From Acidobacteriota bacterium (GTDB lineage Bacteria > Acidobacteriota > Terriglobia > Bryobacterales > Bryobacteraceae): a stretch of DNA of 64,000 nucleotides. The stretch is taken from positions 310,001 to 374,000 of the forward strand of contig JAKOTR010000053.1 of NCBI GenBank assembly GCA_029776225.1, written 5' to 3'. Below, piece by piece: positions 36,191 through 43,616 of this stretch. Both the position numbers and the translations under genes were made by a program. Position 1 is the stretch's first letter. Every line of letters starts with the position of its first letter. Under the pieces are notes generated by a model. It did not search any database. It saw nothing but the letters and a program-made list of their open reading frames with translations, and was not told the origin of the DNA.

Positions 36191-37135
36191 ATGCCGAAGA
36201 CGAGACGGAGTTTCCTGCAGACCACGGCCGCGCTCGGAGCCGGATTCAGCAGCGCGTCTTCCCTGTCATTCGCTCAGGTCCGGAGGGGAGCCAGGAACCC
36301 CATCGATGCCGTTCCGGATTCTGAGATTAAAGTCCCGAAGGTGAAATTCGGCAAGTATGAATTGAGCCGGTTCATGATCGGGTGCAACCCCTTCAACGGC
36401 ACCTCGCACCTCAATCGCACCTTCGACGGCGTGATGAGACAGTGGTACCGGTCGGGGAAAGTCGCCGAAGTGTTGAAGCGGTGCGAGAGTTTCGGCATCA
36501 ACTGCTTCAACTACGTCCATGCCGGACGCCTTTACGCCGAATGGGAACGCTACGTGGCGGAAGGCGGCAAGATGCACATCGTCGCTCAGGCATATCAGGA
36601 CGATCCGACCGAAATGGTGAAGACCATCAAGCCGGCGGGCGTCTGGGTGATAGGCGAACGCGTGGACACCGCGTATCGCCGCAACCAACTGAACACAATC
36701 CGCGACTACTGTAAGAAGCTGCGCGATTTGGGCGTCGAGATGGTCGGGGTCGGCAGCCATATCCCGGAAGTGCTCGCGCTGGTGGAGGAACAGGGCTGGG
36801 ACGTGGACTTCTACGCCGGCTGCGCCTACAACCGGCGGCGCACCCAGGAGGAACTCGAGCGGCTCATGTCGGGCGAACTCCCCGAAGATGTCCAGGAAGT
36901 GTATCTGCGGGGCGATCCGCCGCGGATGTACAAGGTCTTCCGGCAAACGAAAAAACCATGCGTCGCCTTCAAGATCCTGGCTGCCGGGCGGGTGAGCAAC
37001 ATCGAGGCTGCTTTCAAGCTGGCGTTCGACAGCATAAAGCCGATCGATTTGGTCTGCGTGGGCCTGTTTCCGTACTTAAAAGATGAGGTAAAAGAGAACG
37101 CTTACTGGACAATGCGTTACGGTTCCACATCCTGA
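36191..37135 (+). CDS. Tat-exported protein of unknown function, TIM-barrel-like
   Basis: 314 residues from the ATG at 36191, preceded by AGAGG. Textbook Tat signal K-T-R-R-S-F-L-Q-T-T-A-A-L-G-A-G-F. The mature part has repeating strand-helix units (F-M-I-G-C-N-P-F-N-G-T-S-H-L-N, then G-I-N-C-F-N-Y, I-V-A-Q-A-Y, G-V-W-V-I-G-E-R, V-E-M-V-G-V-G-S-H) consistent with a (beta/alpha)8 barrel. The C-terminal A-F-K-I-L-A-A-G-R-V and D-L-V-C-V-G-L-F-P resemble the last strands of aldo/keto-reductase-like or aldolase barrels, but I cannot place the family. Tat export suggests it folds, or binds a cofactor or metal, before export. Confidence 0.7.
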   Translation: MPKTRRSFLQTTAALGAGFSSASSLSFAQVRRGARNPIDAVPDSEIKVPKVKFGKYELSRFMIGCNPFNGTSHLNRTFDGVMRQWYRSGKVAEVLKRCESFGINCFNYVHAGRLYAEWERYVAEGGKMHIVAQAYQDDPTEMVKTIKPAGVWVIGERVDTAYRRNQLNTIRDYCKKLRDLGVEMVGVGSHIPEVLALVEEQGWDVDFYAGCAYNRRRTQEELERLMSGELPEDVQEVYLRGDPPRMYKVFRQTKKPCVAFKILAAGRVSNIEAAFKLAFDSIKPIDLVCVGLFPYLKDEVKENAYWTMRYGSTS

Positions 37136-37284: not shown

Positions 37285-37827
37285 ATGTCTACTGGTCGAA
37301 AAACTGTAAAGCGCCGCAAGTTCCTCAAGATCGGACTTGCGGCGAGTGCATCCGGACTGCTCATCTCCTGCGGGCGCACGGGAGGCGGTCCCCATTGGCG
37401 GTTCTTCACCGAAGAGGAAGCGCGCACCGTGGATGCCATCTGCGAGCAGATTATCCCGGCGGACGATTTCCCGGGCGCTTCGCAGGCCGGAGTGGTGAAC
37501 TTCATCGATCTGCAACTGACGAGGCACTACAAGAAACACCGCGCCGCCTATCGCAAGGGCGTCGCGAACGTCGAGGCCGTCAGCCGCGAGACCTTCGGCA
37601 AGCGCTTCACGGAGCTGGAGCCGCAACAGCAGATCGAGGTGCTGACCACGATCGAGGAGAAGGACCCGGCGTTCTTCGCGCTGATCCGCAATCACACCAT
37701 GCAGGGCTATTACGGCGATCCCCGCCACGGCGGCAATCGCGAGTGGGTGAGCTGGAAGATGCTGGCTCTGGCGTCGCCACCGGTGCGCGGGCGCGCACGC
37801 CTCGACAAGGAAAGCAGGGTGAGCTGA
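37285..37827 (+). CDS. Gluconate 2-dehydrogenase subunit 3-like Tat lipoprotein
   Basis: 180 residues. Tat motif K-R-R-K-F-L-K and lipobox L-I-S-C (Cys near residue 29), so a Tat-exported lipoprotein. The rest matches the gluconate-2-dehydrogenase subunit 3 family: F-F-T-E-E-E-A-R-T-V-D-A-I-C-E-Q-I-I-P-A-D-D-F-P-G-A and the C-terminal Y-Y-G-D-P-R-H-G-G-N. This small subunit is a chaperone/partner needed for export of the flavoprotein, which often lacks its own signal. Its stop overlaps the start of the GMC gene (TGATG). Confidence 0.9.
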   Translation: MSTGRKTVKRRKFLKIGLAASASGLLISCGRTGGGPHWRFFTEEEARTVDAICEQIIPADDFPGASQAGVVNFIDLQLTRHYKKHRAAYRKGVANVEAVSRETFGKRFTELEPQQQIEVLTTIEEKDPAFFALIRNHTMQGYYGDPRHGGNREWVSWKMLALASPPVRGRARLDKESRVS

Positions 37828-39482
37828 TGGCTTTAAAGCATGTCAATGCAGTCGTAGTGGGATCCGGCGCCGGGGGCGGCGTCGTCGCCAAAGAACTTGC
37901 CACGGCCGGCCTGAGTGTCGTGTTGCTGGAGCGCGGGAAATCCTACTCCGCCGCCGACTGCCGCAAGGACGACCTCAGAAACCAGCGGACCACCGTGCTG
38001 GGCAACGCATTCGGCCCGGATGACGAGCGGAACCCCCGCGTGCTGGTGGACGAGAAGGGCCGCGAGCGCATCGTGCTTGCCAGCGAAGGCGGCTACAGCA
38101 ACAACGCCGCCTGCGTGGGCGGAGGCACCTTCAGCTACGGCGCCATGGCGTGGCGGTTCATGGAGCAGGATTTCCGGATGAAGTCCATTTACGGAGCGGT
38201 GGAAGGAAGCACGCTCGAGGACTGGCCCATCACCTACTTCGACCTGGAGCCGTATTACGAAAAAGCCGAATGGGAGATGGGAGTTTCCGGAGACGATTCG
38301 GGGAACCCCTTCAAAGCCCCGCGGCGCAAGCCATTGCCGATGCCGCCCCTGCCGCCGAACCGGGAATTTGAAATCCTGGAGCCGGCGGCCAAAAGGCTTG
38401 GCCTGCACCCGTTCCATATCCCCATGCTGCGCAACTCGGTGCCTTACAACGGCAGGGGGGCGTGCATGCGCTGCCGCTGGTGCGTGGGTTTCGCCTGCGA
38501 AGTGGACGCCAGGACGGGGACACACAATTCGGTCATCCCGATGGCGCTGGCCACCGGCAACTGCGAACTCCGCACCGAGTGCATGGTCAGCGAGGTTATG
38601 GTGGACGACCACGGGCGGGCCCGCGGCGTCGTGTATTTCGATGAGAACGACCGGCGCCAGGAGCAGACCGCCGATCTCATCATCATCTGCTGCGGGGCGA
38701 TCGAGTCCGCGCGGCTTCTGCTGAACTCCAAGAGCAAGCTTTTCCCCAACGGCCTGGGCAACCGCTACGACTGGGTCGGAAGAAACCTGCAAGGGCACAC
38801 CTATTCCGGCGCGGTGGGCCTGTTCGACTTCGATACGTACGATGACGTCGGGCCCGGCGCCCAGATCGCCATCTGCGACTACAACCACGGAAACCCCGGC
38901 CTGGTGGGCGGCGCCATGCTGGCCAACGAGTTTATACGGCTACCCTATCACGTCGTCAATTATGCGCCGGCTTACGTGCCTTCCTGGGGCCTGGCTCACA
39001 AGGAGTGGATGCGGAATGCCTTCAAGCGAACCATTGTGGTCATAGGGCCGACTCAGGAGATCCCCATCTTCGACGCCAGAGTGCAGGTGGATCCGAAGGT
39101 GAAGGACCACTGGGGCATCCCGGTCGCGCGGCTGTCCGGCGGGAAGCACCCGCACACAATGGAGATCGCGCACGCCATGACCCAGAAGGCGGAGGCATGG
39201 CTGAAAGAGGCGGGCGCCAGGCGCACCTGGCGAAGGCAGCCCTCTCCGGGGTTGAGCGGCGGCCAGCACCAGGCGGGCACGTGCCGCATGGGCAACGATC
39301 CGAAGACTTCGGTGGTGGATAAATACTGCCGCATTCACGATGTGGATAACGTTTACGTCGTTGATGGAGGTGTGCACGTCACCAACGGCGGATTTAACCC
39401 GGTCTTGACGATTCTGGCGATCGCATACTACGCCTCCGATAACCTGATCAAGACCTGGAAAAACACGAAGGGCCGCGTATGA
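37827..39482 (+). CDS. GMC-family FAD dehydrogenase, large subunit (gluconate/sugar dehydrogenase-like)
   Basis: 551 residues from the ATG at 37827; a frame extending to 37254 merely overlaps the small-subunit gene and is rejected. N-terminal FAD Rossmann motif G-S-G-A-G-G-G (12-18), E-R-G-K near residue 36, and a GMC C-terminal block H-Q-A-G-T-C-R-M-G with the catalytic histidines, followed by N-V-Y-V-V-D-G-G and N-G-G-F-N-P-V. A C-x-x-C-x-x-C-x-x-x-C cluster (C-M-R-C-R-W-C-V-G-F-A-C, about residues 212-223) is reminiscent of the Fe-S-binding cysteines in FAD-glucose dehydrogenase alpha subunits. It has no signal peptide and is probably carried out with the Tat small subunit. Electrons likely go to the next gene's cytochrome. 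Confidence 0.9.
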   Translation: MALKHVNAVVVGSGAGGGVVAKELATAGLSVVLLERGKSYSAADCRKDDLRNQRTTVLGNAFGPDDERNPRVLVDEKGRERIVLASEGGYSNNAACVGGGTFSYGAMAWRFMEQDFRMKSIYGAVEGSTLEDWPITYFDLEPYYEKAEWEMGVSGDDSGNPFKAPRRKPLPMPPLPPNREFEILEPAAKRLGLHPFHIPMLRNSVPYNGRGACMRCRWCVGFACEVDARTGTHNSVIPMALATGNCELRTECMVSEVMVDDHGRARGVVYFDENDRRQEQTADLIIICCGAIESARLLLNSKSKLFPNGLGNRYDWVGRNLQGHTYSGAVGLFDFDTYDDVGPGAQIAICDYNHGNPGLVGGAMLANEFIRLPYHVVNYAPAYVPSWGLAHKEWMRNAFKRTIVVIGPTQEIPIFDARVQVDPKVKDHWGIPVARLSGGKHPHTMEIAHAMTQKAEAWLKEAGARRTWRRQPSPGLSGGQHQAGTCRMGNDPKTSVVDKYCRIHDVDNVYVVDGGVHVTNGGFNPVLTILAIAYYASDNLIKTWKNTKGRV

Positions 39483-40537
39483 AGAGAATTGCCGCTTTCG
39501 CCGGCGCCGGACTAATTGCCGCTATATTACTGGTTCCCGGAGCGACTTTGTATTACGAGTCTGGCGGAGGCGCCAACTGTACGAAGTGTCACGAGATGAA
39601 CTCTCAGTACGATTTCTGGCGCGCCTCCAGTCACCGGGGCATCGCCTGCTCCAAGTGCCACGGCGGAGCTTTCACGGCCGACGTCGGGTTCCACCTACAG
39701 AACGCCAGCAGGGTCTACTACCACCTGAAAGGGGATTTGCCGGAGCAGATCCGCATTCGTAACGCCGACGTGCCGGCCATCGTGGAGCGCTGCCGGAGCT
39801 GTCATCAGCAGGAATTCGCGCAATGGCAAGCGGGTCCGCACAGCGCCACCTACGCGCGCATCTTCACCGACAAAGAGCACAACACGGGCCGGCTCCTCAT
39901 GGACGACTGCCTGCGCTGCCACGGCATGCATTATGAAGGCGGCATACGGGACCTGGTGGCTCCTCTGGACCGGACGGGGCCGTGGCGGATCGTGCCTGCC
40001 GGACTGGCCGATCAACCCAGCATCCCCTGCCTGGCTTGTCACGCGATTCACCGCGAGGGGCCGATGCTCAAGAAAGTTGGCGTGGAGGGCCGCATAGCCG
40101 GACCGGAACAGGAGATTCACCGCCCGTCGCTGGCGTTTTATGATCGCCGGAGCGGGAAATCGATTCCGGTTGCCGATCTGCCGCTGCCCGTAATGCTGGA
40201 AGGCGACCGTCAGGTCAAGATGAGCACGGACCGCCGCCAGGCGCTGTGCTATCAGTGCCACGCGCCCGAAGCCGGGATGCAGGTGGGCAGCGGCGACGAC
40301 CGCACGCCCATCGGCGTACACGAAGGCATAAGCTGCCTGTCGTGCCACCAGAAGCACGGCCAGAAAACGCGGGCCTCATGTGCGGAGTGCCATCCAAAGA
40401 TGTCAAACTGTGGTTTGGACGTCGAAACGATGGACACCACTTTCCGGTCTCCGGAAAGCAAGAACAATATTCACTGGGTGAAGTGCGTAGATTGCCACCC
40501 GAAAGGTGTGCCAAGAAAGAAGGAGGGCAGACAATGA
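39479..40537 (+). CDS. Membrane-anchored nine-heme c-type cytochrome
   Basis: 352 residues with nine C-x-x-C-H heme sites (CTKCH, CSKCH, CRSCH, CLRCH, CLACH, CYQCH, CLSCH, CAECH, CVDCH) and no retained-only half motifs. One N-terminal membrane anchor (about 5-26), then a NapC/NrfH-like start: C-x-x-C-H-E-M...S-S-H-R-G-I-A-C-S-K-C-H. It overlaps both the GMC gene (ATGA) and the DUF2911 gene (ATGA). In gluconate-2-dehydrogenase-type enzymes this position is held by a three-heme subunit, so a nine-heme NapC-like chain is unusual. It probably moves electrons between the flavoprotein, the quinone pool and other periplasmic acceptors. Confidence 0.9.
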   Translation: MKRIAAFAGAGLIAAILLVPGATLYYESGGGANCTKCHEMNSQYDFWRASSHRGIACSKCHGGAFTADVGFHLQNASRVYYHLKGDLPEQIRIRNADVPAIVERCRSCHQQEFAQWQAGPHSATYARIFTDKEHNTGRLLMDDCLRCHGMHYEGGIRDLVAPLDRTGPWRIVPAGLADQPSIPCLACHAIHREGPMLKKVGVEGRIAGPEQEIHRPSLAFYDRRSGKSIPVADLPLPVMLEGDRQVKMSTDRRQALCYQCHAPEAGMQVGSGDDRTPIGVHEGISCLSCHQKHGQKTRASCAECHPKMSNCGLDVETMDTTFRSPESKNNIHWVKCVDCHPKGVPRKKEGRQ

Positions 40538-41022
40538 AATCCGTTATCCACTGTGCCGCCGCGCTGCTTCTCACGGCGGGCCTGGTTGCCGCCCAACCGG
40601 CGGGGCTGAAGGAAGCGTCGGTGACGATGAGCGGGAAGGTCATCAAGATCGAATACCCCGCGCTGCCATCCCAGGGCCAGATCGCAGGAAAACCCGCCTT
40701 CTTCCATACGGACTCGGATCTGGAAGTGCAGGGCCTGGCAGTTCCGAAGGGCGACTACACGCTTTTCGTGGAACCGGACGCCAACGAATGGCAACTCGTT
40801 TTCAGCAAGCAGCCGAAAGCGCAGGCCGCCAAGCTGAACCCGAAGATGGTGCTCGGGCGCGTGCCTATGGATATGAAAAAGAACGCCGCGCCGGCCGAAG
40901 CGCTTAAGGTGACGCTCACCAGCTTCGGCAAAGTGGCGGGCAAGCTCGAAGTGGCGTGGGGAAACACGATCGCGTCGGTTCCGTTCAGCCTCGATATTTT
41001 GAAACCGGCCCCGGAGTGGTAA
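40534..41022 (+). CDS. Secreted DUF2911-family protein
   Basis: 162 residues with the ATG overlapping the cytochrome stop and AGGAGGG before it. Signal peptide S-V-I-H-C-A-A-A-L-L-L-T-A-G-L-V-A-A-Q. The mature domain has the DUF2911 pattern: an N-terminal strand V-T-M-S-G-K-V-I-K-I-E-Y, then L-A-V-P-K-G-D-Y-T-L-F-V-E-P and W-Q-L-V-F-S-K-Q. The family is found in secreted proteins of Bacteroidetes and Acidobacteria without known function. Co-translation with the cytochrome suggests an accessory role in the dehydrogenase complex. Confidence 0.8.
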   Translation: MKSVIHCAAALLLTAGLVAAQPAGLKEASVTMSGKVIKIEYPALPSQGQIAGKPAFFHTDSDLEVQGLAVPKGDYTLFVEPDANEWQLVFSKQPKAQAAKLNPKMVLGRVPMDMKKNAAPAEALKVTLTSFGKVAGKLEVAWGNTIASVPFSLDILKPAPEW

Positions 41023-41126: not shown

Positions 41127-43616
41127 ATGTCCACCCGATCGCTAATCTTACAAGCCGTTGCCTGCCTGCTGGCCGTTTGCGGCTGGCCGGCCGGGGCTCC
41201 GGCTGCCGAAATCGAGGATCTCGTGCGCCAGATGACTCTCGAAGAGAAGCTCAGCCTGCTGCGCGGCGACCGCGATCCCGAAAATCTCGGGCAGGCAGGC
41301 TACTGGTCCGGTCTGCCGCGGCTTGGGATTCCGCCGATGCGTCTGGCGGACGGGCCGCCCGGCGTCAATGTCGACCGGGAAGCTACCGCCATGCCGGCGC
41401 CCGTTCTGCTGGCGGCCACGTTTGACGCCGCAGCCGCGCGGCGCTACGGCGAGGTCTTGGGACGCGAAGCGCGAGCGCTGCGGCAGGACGTGCTGCTGGC
41501 GCCCTACGTGAACATCGTCCGCGATCCGCTGTTCCGGCGGAACCATGCGACGCTGGGCGAGGATCCCCTGCTCAACGCCCGCCTGGGAGCCGCGTACATT
41601 GAGGGCGTCCAGAGTCAAGGCGTGATGGCGCAGGTGAAGCACCTTGCGGCTTACAACGGGCCGGATAGCGTCTACATCGACGAGCAAACCCTCCGGGAGA
41701 TTTACCTGCCGCCGTTCGAGGCCGCGGTACGTGCGGGAGTGGCTTCCGCGATGTGCGCCTACAACCGCGTCAACGGCGTTTCCGCCTGCGAGAACGACGA
41801 GATCCAGAACCGGATTCTGCGCGGGGAGTGGGGCTTTTTGGGATTTATCACCAGCGATTGGGGCGCTCTGCGGCGCCCGCAGGCCCTGCTGGGTGGAGTC
41901 GATATGGAGATGCCCGGGCGCGAGGTGCTCGGCAGGGGAGGACCGCACTTCGGGAAGCCGCTTGAGGAAGCTGTGCGCCAAGGGCAAATCCCCGTTTCCG
42001 CGATCGATGCGGCTGTCACTCGCATACTCCGGCAAATGGATCGCTTCGGTTTGCTGAAACGCGGTCCGGCTTCCTCAACTGGCGCGATCGACGTCGCGGC
42101 TCACGCCGAGATCGCCCGAGAGATCGCGGAAAAGGGCGCGGTGCTGCTCAAGAATGACGGCAACGCCCTGCCGCTGTCGCGGAACGATCTGGAATCGTTG
42201 GTTGTGGTTGGGCCTACCGCGCGGCAGCCGGTAACTGGTTATCAGACTGAGCGCGGCTCCGGCTTTTCATCGCGGCTGATCTCTGCGCTGGACGCTCTGC
42301 GCAGGTCCGCCCCCGGCGCGAAAATTCGCTACTTCGTGGGGAACGATTTGGCAGGCGAGCCGCTGGGCGCGCCCGAGCTCTCCTCTACGACGCATCCGGT
42401 TCGAGAAATGGATTTTTCCGGCTCCGGCGCTCTTCAGCCGGGCTCAGAGTTTACCTGGTCGGGCACGCTGGCGGTCGAGGAGGAAGGCGAGTACGTCTTC
42501 ATGGTTCAAACCGCGGTCGGAGCGGATGGCGGGAGCGGCGGCGAAGTGCTGATTGACGGGCGCCCGGTGGTCCGCTCACGCGGCTTCCGCGGTTTCGGAG
42601 CCGTGCAAAGGCCGTGGTCCAGCCTGCTGCCGACGGCGGACGGCCTGGACAACGCGCGCGCCGCGATTCACCTCACACCGGGCTCGCACAAGATCGAGTT
42701 CAGGGCCCTTTCGGCCGGAAGGTCTCCGTTTCGCATCCGGTTTGCCTGGGCGAGCCCGGCGCACCGGCGCAAGCAACGGGAGGAGGCGGTCAAGGCCGCG
42801 GCGGCGGCGCGCGCCGCTGTTGTCTTCGCCTGGCACGAGGCGGGGTCTTCTCTGTCCTTGCCCGAGGAGCAGGACGAACTGATCAGCCGGATTGCCGCGG
42901 TGAATCCCCGCACGATTGTGGTTTTGCATGCCGGCGCTCCGGTCGCGATGCCGTGGAAGGAAAGCGTGAAGGCGATTCTGCTGATGTGGTACCCCGGACA
43001 GGAGGGCGGTTGGGCCACGGCGAACCTGCTGTTGGGCAGGGCGAACCCCAGCGGAAAACTTCCGGTGACCTTTCCAGTCAGGTTGCAGGACACACCGGCG
43101 CGCGCCCCCGGTCATCCCGAGCGGTGGGCCCCGCCGGCGCCCGCGGGCATAGCCGGAGTGGACCCGAATCCGCCCAAAGTGGTTTTCTCCGAAGGTTTGG
43201 CCGTCGGCTATCGATGGTATGACCAACAGGGGATCGAACCTTTGTTCCCGTTCGGCCATGGCCTGTCCTACACCCGTTTCGAGTATTCCGATTTGCGGGT
43301 GATCCAGCGGGGTGACGGCGTCAGTGTTACCTTCTCATTGCGAAATGCCGGCGACGTCAAGGGCGCCGAGGTGGCGCAATTGTACCTGGGCCCGCCGGAG
43401 CGTCAGGCCGCAAACAGGCCGCCGCGGTGGCTGGCCGGGTTTGAGCGGATTGAACTTGCAAAAGGCGAGCGCCGTGATGTAACGATTCACCTGGGTTCGC
43501 GCGCCCTCTCGGTCTGGTCATCGGAACAGCACGCCTGGGCCCCCGGCGAGGGCCGCCGTGAAGTATTTATCGGAAGCTCTTCGCGCGACATCCGGCTGCG
43601 GGGGTATATAGAGTAA
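41127..43616 (+). CDS. Secreted glycoside hydrolase family 3 with PA14 insertion
   Basis: 829 residues from the ATG at 41127. Signal peptide (about 1-27). GH3 N-terminal barrel with K-H at 171-172 and nucleophile D244 in G-F-I-T-S-D-W-G-A-L. The second GH3 domain (about 330-380 and 540-640) is interrupted by a PA14-like beta-barrel (about 390-540; S-G-T-L-A-V-E-E-E-G-E-Y-V-F). The C-terminal fibronectin-III-like domain (about 700-829) contains F-P-F-G-H-G-L-S-Y-T-x-F. The architecture matches beta-glucosidases/beta-xylosidases that attack plant oligosaccharides. It follows the sugar-dehydrogenase operon, which might oxidise the released sugar. Confidence 0.92.
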   Translation: MSTRSLILQAVACLLAVCGWPAGAPAAEIEDLVRQMTLEEKLSLLRGDRDPENLGQAGYWSGLPRLGIPPMRLADGPPGVNVDREATAMPAPVLLAATFDAAAARRYGEVLGREARALRQDVLLAPYVNIVRDPLFRRNHATLGEDPLLNARLGAAYIEGVQSQGVMAQVKHLAAYNGPDSVYIDEQTLREIYLPPFEAAVRAGVASAMCAYNRVNGVSACENDEIQNRILRGEWGFLGFITSDWGALRRPQALLGGVDMEMPGREVLGRGGPHFGKPLEEAVRQGQIPVSAIDAAVTRILRQMDRFGLLKRGPASSTGAIDVAAHAEIAREIAEKGAVLLKNDGNALPLSRNDLESLVVVGPTARQPVTGYQTERGSGFSSRLISALDALRRSAPGAKIRYFVGNDLAGEPLGAPELSSTTHPVREMDFSGSGALQPGSEFTWSGTLAVEEEGEYVFMVQTAVGADGGSGGEVLIDGRPVVRSRGFRGFGAVQRPWSSLLPTADGLDNARAAIHLTPGSHKIEFRALSAGRSPFRIRFAWASPAHRRKQREEAVKAAAAARAAVVFAWHEAGSSLSLPEEQDELISRIAAVNPRTIVVLHAGAPVAMPWKESVKAILLMWYPGQEGGWATANLLLGRANPSGKLPVTFPVRLQDTPARAPGHPERWAPPAPAGIAGVDPNPPKVVFSEGLAVGYRWYDQQGIEPLFPFGHGLSYTRFEYSDLRVIQRGDGVSVTFSLRNAGDVKGAEVAQLYLGPPERQAANRPPRWLAGFERIELAKGERRDVTIHLGSRALSVWSSEQHAWAPGEGRREVFIGSSSRDIRLRGYIE

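Follow-up and report, generated by a model that had tools for sequence, protein, structure and literature searches.

Does a run of overlapping genes in an Acidobacteriota genome encode a sugar or alcohol dehydrogenase with an unusual nine-heme electron-transfer subunit, and which of those genes belong to it? The locus lies within a stretch of 64,000 nucleotides, referred to here as the window (assembly GCA_029776225.1, contig JAKOTR010000053.1, positions 310,001–374,000 of the forward strand), from a Bryobacteraceae genome of 5.18 Mb; its nearest relatives in our genome scan are metagenome genomes from Bryobacterales and Bryobacteraceae. An initial annotation had described a set of four genes overlapping by a few bases, and inspection of the open reading frames (ORFs) confirms that all four are present on the + strand in the order and at the coordinates given there, with reading-frame overlaps of 1, 4 and 4 bases. 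They encode a Gluconate_2-dh3 small (hitchhiker) subunit of 180 residues (37285–37827), a GMC oxidoreductase of 551 residues that is the catalytic flavoprotein (37827–39482), a nine-heme c-type cytochrome of 352 residues with an N-terminal helix (39479–40537) and a DUF2911 protein of 162 residues (40534–41022; PF11138, E = 1.3e-16). The assignment of the first two to the gluconate-2-dehydrogenase type is supported by matches to PF13618 (E = 2.3e-33) for the small subunit and to PF05199 (E = 4.7e-22) and PF00732 (E = 4.1e-16) for the flavoprotein. We conclude that the small subunit, the GMC protein and the nine-heme cytochrome form a real unit and that the fourth gene does not belong to it.

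This conclusion rests on the neighbourhoods of related cytochrome genes. Named genomes of bacteria and archaea were scanned from two peptide patterns, an approach liable to miss divergent relatives; this gave 127 confirmed cytochrome loci, and neighbourhoods were counted in the best 80 of these 127. The titles of the 80 name Acidobacteriota groups (Bryobacterales, Acidobacteriaceae and others), with the exception of one titled only 'bacterium'. In 78 of the 80 loci the gene directly upstream of the cytochrome gene, on the same strand, is a GMC gene, and in 74 a Gluconate_2-dh3 gene precedes this pair; where the GMC or small-subunit gene is missing, the cytochrome lies less than 1 kb from a contig end. 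The GMC and cytochrome genes are separated by no gap in 49 of the 78 loci, by 1–50 bases in 21 and by 51–400 bases in 8, and, with start codons picked by rule, the stop of the former overlaps the start of the latter by exactly 4 bases in 39. A second sample, which shares genomes with the 80-locus set, comprised 150 genomes from the same family as the source. The cytochrome is present in 56 of them, counting one with a 64-residue match only (G074) and two with pieces at contig ends (G012 and G103), and 55 of the 59 neighbourhoods fetched, representing every listed cytochrome match beyond the window, contain a GMC homologue.

The initial annotation had suggested that DUF2911 might be part of the dehydrogenase system and had proposed that all four families be sought together in other genomes. 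The survey found the small subunit, GMC and nine-heme families side by side, whereas a DUF2911 gene follows the cytochrome in only 8 of the 80 loci, which are among the closest relatives, a ninth match being doubtful (E = 0.001). These searches used the window protein and then a profile of the eight local proteins, to which seven of the hits necessarily belong. In the family sample DUF2911 occurs in 118 of the 150 genomes, 44 of the 56 cytochrome genomes and 74 of the 94 others (p = 1.0). A sequence search of solved structures returned no credible match to the DUF2911 protein. Its gene shares the last 4 bases of the cytochrome gene, stop codon included, at this locus and adjoins the 3' side of that gene in those eight loci, as a true fourth subunit might; nevertheless, it was not found behind the cytochrome in the remaining loci, the doubtful match excepted, and it is common irrespective of the cytochrome, so that such a role is highly improbable. 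On the neighbourhood and phyletic counts we reject DUF2911 as a subunit and regard its gene as a local addition outside the conserved module.

The GMC protein is matched over its full length by profiles of the flavin adenine dinucleotide (FAD)-dependent glucose dehydrogenase of B. cepacia (6a2u, E = 1.2e-69) and of fructose dehydrogenase (8xcm, E = 4.2e-60). It contains the four-cysteine cluster noted earlier, CMRCRWCVGFAC, at residues 213–224 (38463–38498, + strand), with the spacing C-x2-C-x2-C-x4-C, and this putative iron–sulphur site aligns with the region of Cys212, Cys213, Cys218 and Cys222 in the B. cepacia enzyme. Cys213, Cys216, Cys219 and Cys224, together with His481 and Asn524, are invariant in all 29 aligned GMC rows. 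In the B. cepacia enzyme (PMC6719666), a 3Fe-4S cluster is bound by Cys212, Cys218 and Cys222, Cys213 is linked to the small subunit by a disulfide, FAD is attached covalently through His105 and a His/Asn pair is catalytic; the His/Asn pair and the cysteines of the window protein align with the residues described there. Because the invariant cysteines match the B. cepacia iron–sulphur site region, the four-cysteine cluster is to be expected in the protein; it sits at the known site of the enzyme class, and its spacing might accommodate either a 3Fe-4S or a 4Fe-4S cluster. At the position of the FAD-linking histidine the window protein has Ser103; across the 29 rows the residue is Ser in 23, Thr in 5 and Cys in 1.

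The pairing of flavoprotein and cytochrome is also evident in the GMC phylogeny. The tree was built by a quick search, with approximate likelihood-ratio (SH-aLRT) support only, from 45 rows: the window protein, every third of 72 full-length GMC proteins from close loci and 20 GMC proteins from a phylum sample. This last sample consisted of 396 genomes, of which 5 have the cytochrome and at least three are common with the family sample; its GMC search gave 36 matches besides the window's own, and 20 of them were fetched. All 29 rows in which the GMC gene has a nonaheme neighbour lie within one 32-row clade with a support of 100, and the nonaheme-neighbour state requires 2 changes on the tree, compared with a mean of 13.3 for shuffled states, none of 500 shuffles being as low. 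The three clade members lacking the nonaheme cytochrome, 59–65% identical, belong to genomes G305 and G359, which gave no cytochrome match at E = 1e-15. Among the 13 more distant GMC proteins, 10 have a small-subunit homologue and 10 the C-x2-C-x2-C-x4-C spacing, and no same-strand ORF with two or more CXXCH motifs was found within the stretch fetched around any of them. The distant enzymes with no such ORF and the clade members with no cytochrome indicate that pairing with the nonaheme cytochrome probably arose later than the flavoprotein type itself. The source genome has three GMC matches and one cytochrome match. The genes might still be mere neighbours, with the cytochrome serving other pathways, and one genome (G390) has a nine-heme homologue with no GMC neighbour detected. 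Given the adjacency in 78 of the 80 Acidobacteriota loci and the single GMC clade, we think this very unlikely.

The small subunit carries an RR motif, and its TAT_signal score is 16 bits, under the cut-off of 22.7; with a crude pattern, an RR-type motif is recognised in 65 of the 74 small-subunit loci. The RR signal is followed by a possible lipobox, LISC, at residues 26–29, and a pattern of the same crudeness finds a cysteine in the signal region in 68 of the 74 loci. On the strength of this possible lipobox cysteine, the dehydrogenase complex may also be lipid-anchored. The source genome has a second Gluconate_2-dh3 homologue, about 50% identical (L092:7202–7834, contig C21), which adjoins a gene named by eye as TonB-receptor-like; no GMC homologue was detected in the 14.5-kb stretch around it.

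The cytochrome is the sole ORF of the window with two or more CXXCH motifs. Its nine motifs are at residues 34, 57, 105, 144, 184, 257, 286, 301 and 336; since shuffled versions of the protein average 0.057 motifs and never exceed 3 in 20,000 shuffles, this number is not due to chance. All nine are kept in 78 of the 80 loci, the proteins of the other two (L109 and L165) being disrupted or truncated. In the AlphaFold model (pLDDT, the predicted local distance difference test score, 83.8; pTM, the predicted template-modelling score, 0.78) residues 2–27 form a predicted helix, judged hydrophobic by inspection rather than by a membrane predictor. Both the nine motifs and the membrane anchor ascribed earlier to the third gene product thus hold, the anchor as a prediction.

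The further description of this protein as NapC-like applies to about the first 130 residues and fails for the whole. The N-terminal part is matched by NrfH (2j7a, E = 1.4e-7, profile positions 14–112). The scores against the curated models, however, fall below their cut-offs, at 58 bits for TIGR03153 (NrfH; cut-off 134.2) and 16.2 bits for PF03264 (cut-off 24.1), and membership of the NapC family was rejected on these grounds; PF03264 is matched at E = 0.001 by 9 of the 78 members of the cytochrome family. Met49, Lys82 and Asp89 of NrfH, in numbering taken from the alignment, are residues that we take to form its quinol site. Across the 78 rows the column aligned to Met49 contains Met in 40 and Ile in 38, that aligned to Lys82 contains His in 51 and a gap in 27, and that aligned to Asp89 contains Arg in 59, His in 15, Gln in 3 and Met in 1, so that the lysine and the aspartate are not conserved in these aligned columns.

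Over its whole length, the cytochrome model is most similar to octaheme nitrite reductases, with Z scores of 7.1–7.8 over 221–236 residues among 24 chains aligned, values that, being under 8, may reflect only a common arrangement. The top match is 8rv0 (Z = 7.8, root-mean-square deviation (rmsd) 4.7, 221 residues aligned), and four entries of the Thioalkalivibrio enzyme have Z scores of 7.1–7.5. Next come an undecaheme cytochrome (Z = 7.0) and NrfH (Z = 5.9), with NrfA and hydroxylamine oxidoreductase scoring lower than the octaheme enzymes, and in Foldseek NrfH is the only high-probability match. The Cytochrome_C554 model matches 73 of the 78 family members. Outside the heme motifs, histidines 52, 121, 191, 281, 293 and 332 are invariant in the 78 rows, position 82 is histidine in 76 and position 134 in 67, and one further column contains histidine in 76 rows and asparagine in the window protein. 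Such a pattern would be consistent with bis-histidine ligation of most hemes, leaving one or two unassigned. Cys311, which is not a heme cysteine, and Met318 are also invariant, and residues 309–322 (SNCGLDVETMDTTF), between hemes 8 and 9, are strongly conserved around them.

These comparisons bear on whether the nine-heme protein could itself be a reductase, with an open-site heme reducing nitrite, hydroxylamine or a similar periplasmic small molecule. The octaheme reductases at the head of the structural matches, the fit of the Cytochrome_C554 model and the count of nine hemes against only seven invariant or near-invariant non-motif histidines, alongside an invariant cysteine and methionine, are what such an enzyme might show. 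The low Z scores may nonetheless mean a common arrangement only, Foldseek gave no octaheme reductase match and His134 could be a further heme ligand. Moreover, octaheme nitrite reductases usually have a catalytic CXXCK motif; all nine motifs of the window protein are CXXCH, and no CXXCK was found. Overall, we consider a reductase unlikely.

A long heme chain could also belong to an extracellular electron-transfer route to minerals or partner cells, and a decaheme survey has led to the proposal that Acidobacteria reduce iron (PMC3669403). A conduit of the MtrB/PioB type was sought and rejected: the source genome contains no match, and in the family sample matches occur in 4 of the 56 cytochrome genomes and 5 of the 94 others (p = 0.73). 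The predicted N-terminal anchor helix also argues against such a route, and no conserved outer-membrane component was found nearby, by neighbour clustering of low sensitivity and with MtrB/PioB as the only porin type searched. An extracellular role for the cytochrome is accordingly very unlikely. Multiheme proteins as such are common in Acidobacteriota, since proteins with 8 or more CXXCH motifs were found in all the Acidobacteriota genomes covered in PMC8100337.

Returning to the dehydrogenase, we find that the trio has a phyletic partner overlooked in the initial annotation, the product of the gene at 36191–37135 (+ strand). In the family sample, homologues at E = 1e-30 are present in 54 of the 56 cytochrome genomes and 18 of the 94 others (Fisher p = 1.9e-22); by genus, the figures are 36 of 36 with the cytochrome and 10 of 40 without. 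Neither DUF2911 nor MtrB/PioB has a comparable link to the cytochrome in the same sample. In the phylum sample the gene is found in 4 of the 5 cytochrome genomes and 11 of the 391 others (p = 6.6e-6), or 3 of 4 and 11 of 391 when the source genome is omitted (p = 1.4e-4); when the sample is regrouped post hoc by GMC clade, it is found in 6 of 7 and 9 of 389 (p = 6.7e-9), the matches in G305 and G359 being weaker (E = 4e-82 and 5e-39). In 14 of the 80 loci a homologue lies no more than 7 kb from the cytochrome, one being a weak 25% match (L135); the positions vary, and two are on the opposite strand. The source genome contains a second copy elsewhere (G000:C45:181982–182893).

Sequence searches of this upstream protein found no Pfam or NCBIfam domain besides a weak twin-arginine translocation (TAT) signal, matched no aldo-keto family and gave no credible match to solved structures. 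Its AlphaFold model (pLDDT 82.9, from 11 sequences) predicts an aldo-keto-reductase fold, a triosephosphate isomerase (TIM) barrel: VIA-align superimposes it on the aldo-keto reductase 4exa with a Z score of 21.4 and an rmsd of 2.9 for 220 aligned residues, nearly all of the 50 structural entries listed are aldo-keto reductases or Kv-beta relatives, and Foldseek returns mixed TIM barrels with an aldo-keto reductase first. Aldo-keto reductases have a catalytic Asp-Tyr-Lys-His tetrad, which is not obvious by inspection of the sequence alignment of the upstream proteins.

Other neighbours recur less often. Clustering of neighbouring ORFs was of limited sensitivity, picking up the small subunit in just 36 loci. 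Apart from the trio, it yielded the upstream gene in 12 of the 80 loci, TonB-receptor-like genes in 7, pyrroloquinoline quinone (PQQ)-type-dehydrogenase-like genes in 7 and glycoside hydrolase family 3 (GH3) genes in 5, among smaller clusters; the TonB-receptor-like and PQQ-type names were assigned by eye, without a family search. In the window a GH3 gene, included here as context only, lies downstream at 41130–43616 (+ strand; PF01915/PF00933). In 6 of the 80 loci a GH3 homologue lies at most about 2 kb downstream of the cytochrome, once on the opposite strand, and the presence of these genes after the module, here and in those loci, lends mild support to a sugar substrate.

We put at about 0.72 the probability that the module is a periplasmic sugar or alcohol dehydrogenase in which a nonaheme relay replaces the triheme subunit. 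The FAD dehydrogenase complex would be anchored in the membrane and face the periplasm, the twin-arginine type signal of the small subunit directing the joint export of this subunit and the folded GMC protein. The flavoprotein would oxidise a sugar, glycoside or alcohol at FAD, using the His/Asn pair, and electrons would pass from FAD to an iron–sulphur cluster in the cysteine-rich loop and on to the nine-heme cytochrome, presumably held by its single N-terminal helix. The heme chain would then deliver them to another respiratory carrier, either quinone or a soluble cytochrome. The upstream protein of aldo-keto-reductase fold, exported by its own predicted signal, probably acts on the substrate of the dehydrogenase or on the oxidised form of it.

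Several observations weigh against this interpretation. The enzyme type does not need a nonaheme cytochrome, since the GMC proteins of G305 and G359 lack one, and no solved relative of the small subunit was found by sequence, though the B. cepacia complex has been solved. Four of the 59 family-sample loci are without a GMC gene; three of these are at contig ends (L074, L084 and L091, the last a short match), and the fourth (L090) is a 64-residue match within a long contig. The nine-heme homologue of G390 mentioned above is a second one in that genome (L210:3302–4276), 35% identical, and no GMC gene is present in the 3.3 kb upstream of it on its short contig. As regards the upstream gene, three genomes (G020, G095 and G320) have the module with no match to it, and the phyletic p-values are too small because related genomes were counted as independent.

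A bolder combination of these elements can be envisaged. The GMC dehydrogenase and a nonaheme subunit with an NrfH-like anchor and a nitrite-reductase-like heme core, possibly reducing a small molecule, would constitute with the exported aldo-keto-reductase-fold protein a dedicated periplasmic sugar-oxidation pathway and a respiratory enzyme class of Acidobacteriota that has not been described before. If this were true, one complex would couple periplasmic sugar oxidation with reduction, but we regard it as a long shot.

Acidobacteriota are abundant in soil and their physiology is poorly understood; the module offers a way into periplasmic sugar oxidation in the phylum that can be tested, as can the exported protein encoded upstream, a newly recognised candidate partner. 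Dehydrogenases of this class are, in addition, of interest as direct-electron-transfer biosensor enzymes. We found no description of the module in the open-access PMC text searched, subscription papers lying outside that search.

With the NrfH/NapC quinol dehydrogenases the cytochrome shares an N-terminal part that aligns with NrfH and a predicted N-terminal anchor, whereas those proteins have four hemes, it has nine and its scores are below the family cut-offs. With the octaheme nitrite reductases, hydroxylamine oxidoreductase and cytochrome c554 it shares modest whole-length structural matches and the match to the c554 model. It differs from this group in being shorter than the matched nitrite reductases, in its predicted N-terminal anchor helix, in having CXXCH motifs throughout and in its genetic tie to a flavoprotein. 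The LacABC lactose 3-dehydrogenase of Caulobacter crescentus has subunits of the GMC, cytochrome c and Gluconate_2-dh3 types, its cytochrome being of a type unlike that of the module. Like the proposed complex, it is a membrane-bound, three-component periplasmic sugar dehydrogenase, and in several bacteria DUF1080 genes occur close to genes of the LacABC type (PMC9007349).

The B. cepacia glucose dehydrogenase (alpha, gamma and beta subunits) and fructose dehydrogenase resemble the module in their GMC subunit, cysteine-rich loop (in the module a putative iron–sulphur site), His/Asn pair and hitchhiker subunit. In the B. cepacia enzyme, however, the electron-transfer subunit has three hemes, as opposed to nine in a cytochrome with other relatives, and FAD is linked through His105, where the window protein has Ser103; the cysteine spacing of the window protein, C-x2-C-x2-C-x4-C, is a further difference. 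No triheme subunit of the glucose/fructose/gluconate 2-dehydrogenase type is present at the locus, the rest of the genome lying outside this search, and no partner was identified for an interchain disulfide of the B. cepacia type, the small subunit having just Cys29 and Cys53. Functionally, the proposed complex has its closest counterparts in the glucose and fructose enzymes and in LacABC. That so unusual an electron-transfer subunit occurs in a widely retained module suggests a modular flavoprotein/hitchhiker pair that can be joined to different heme wires.

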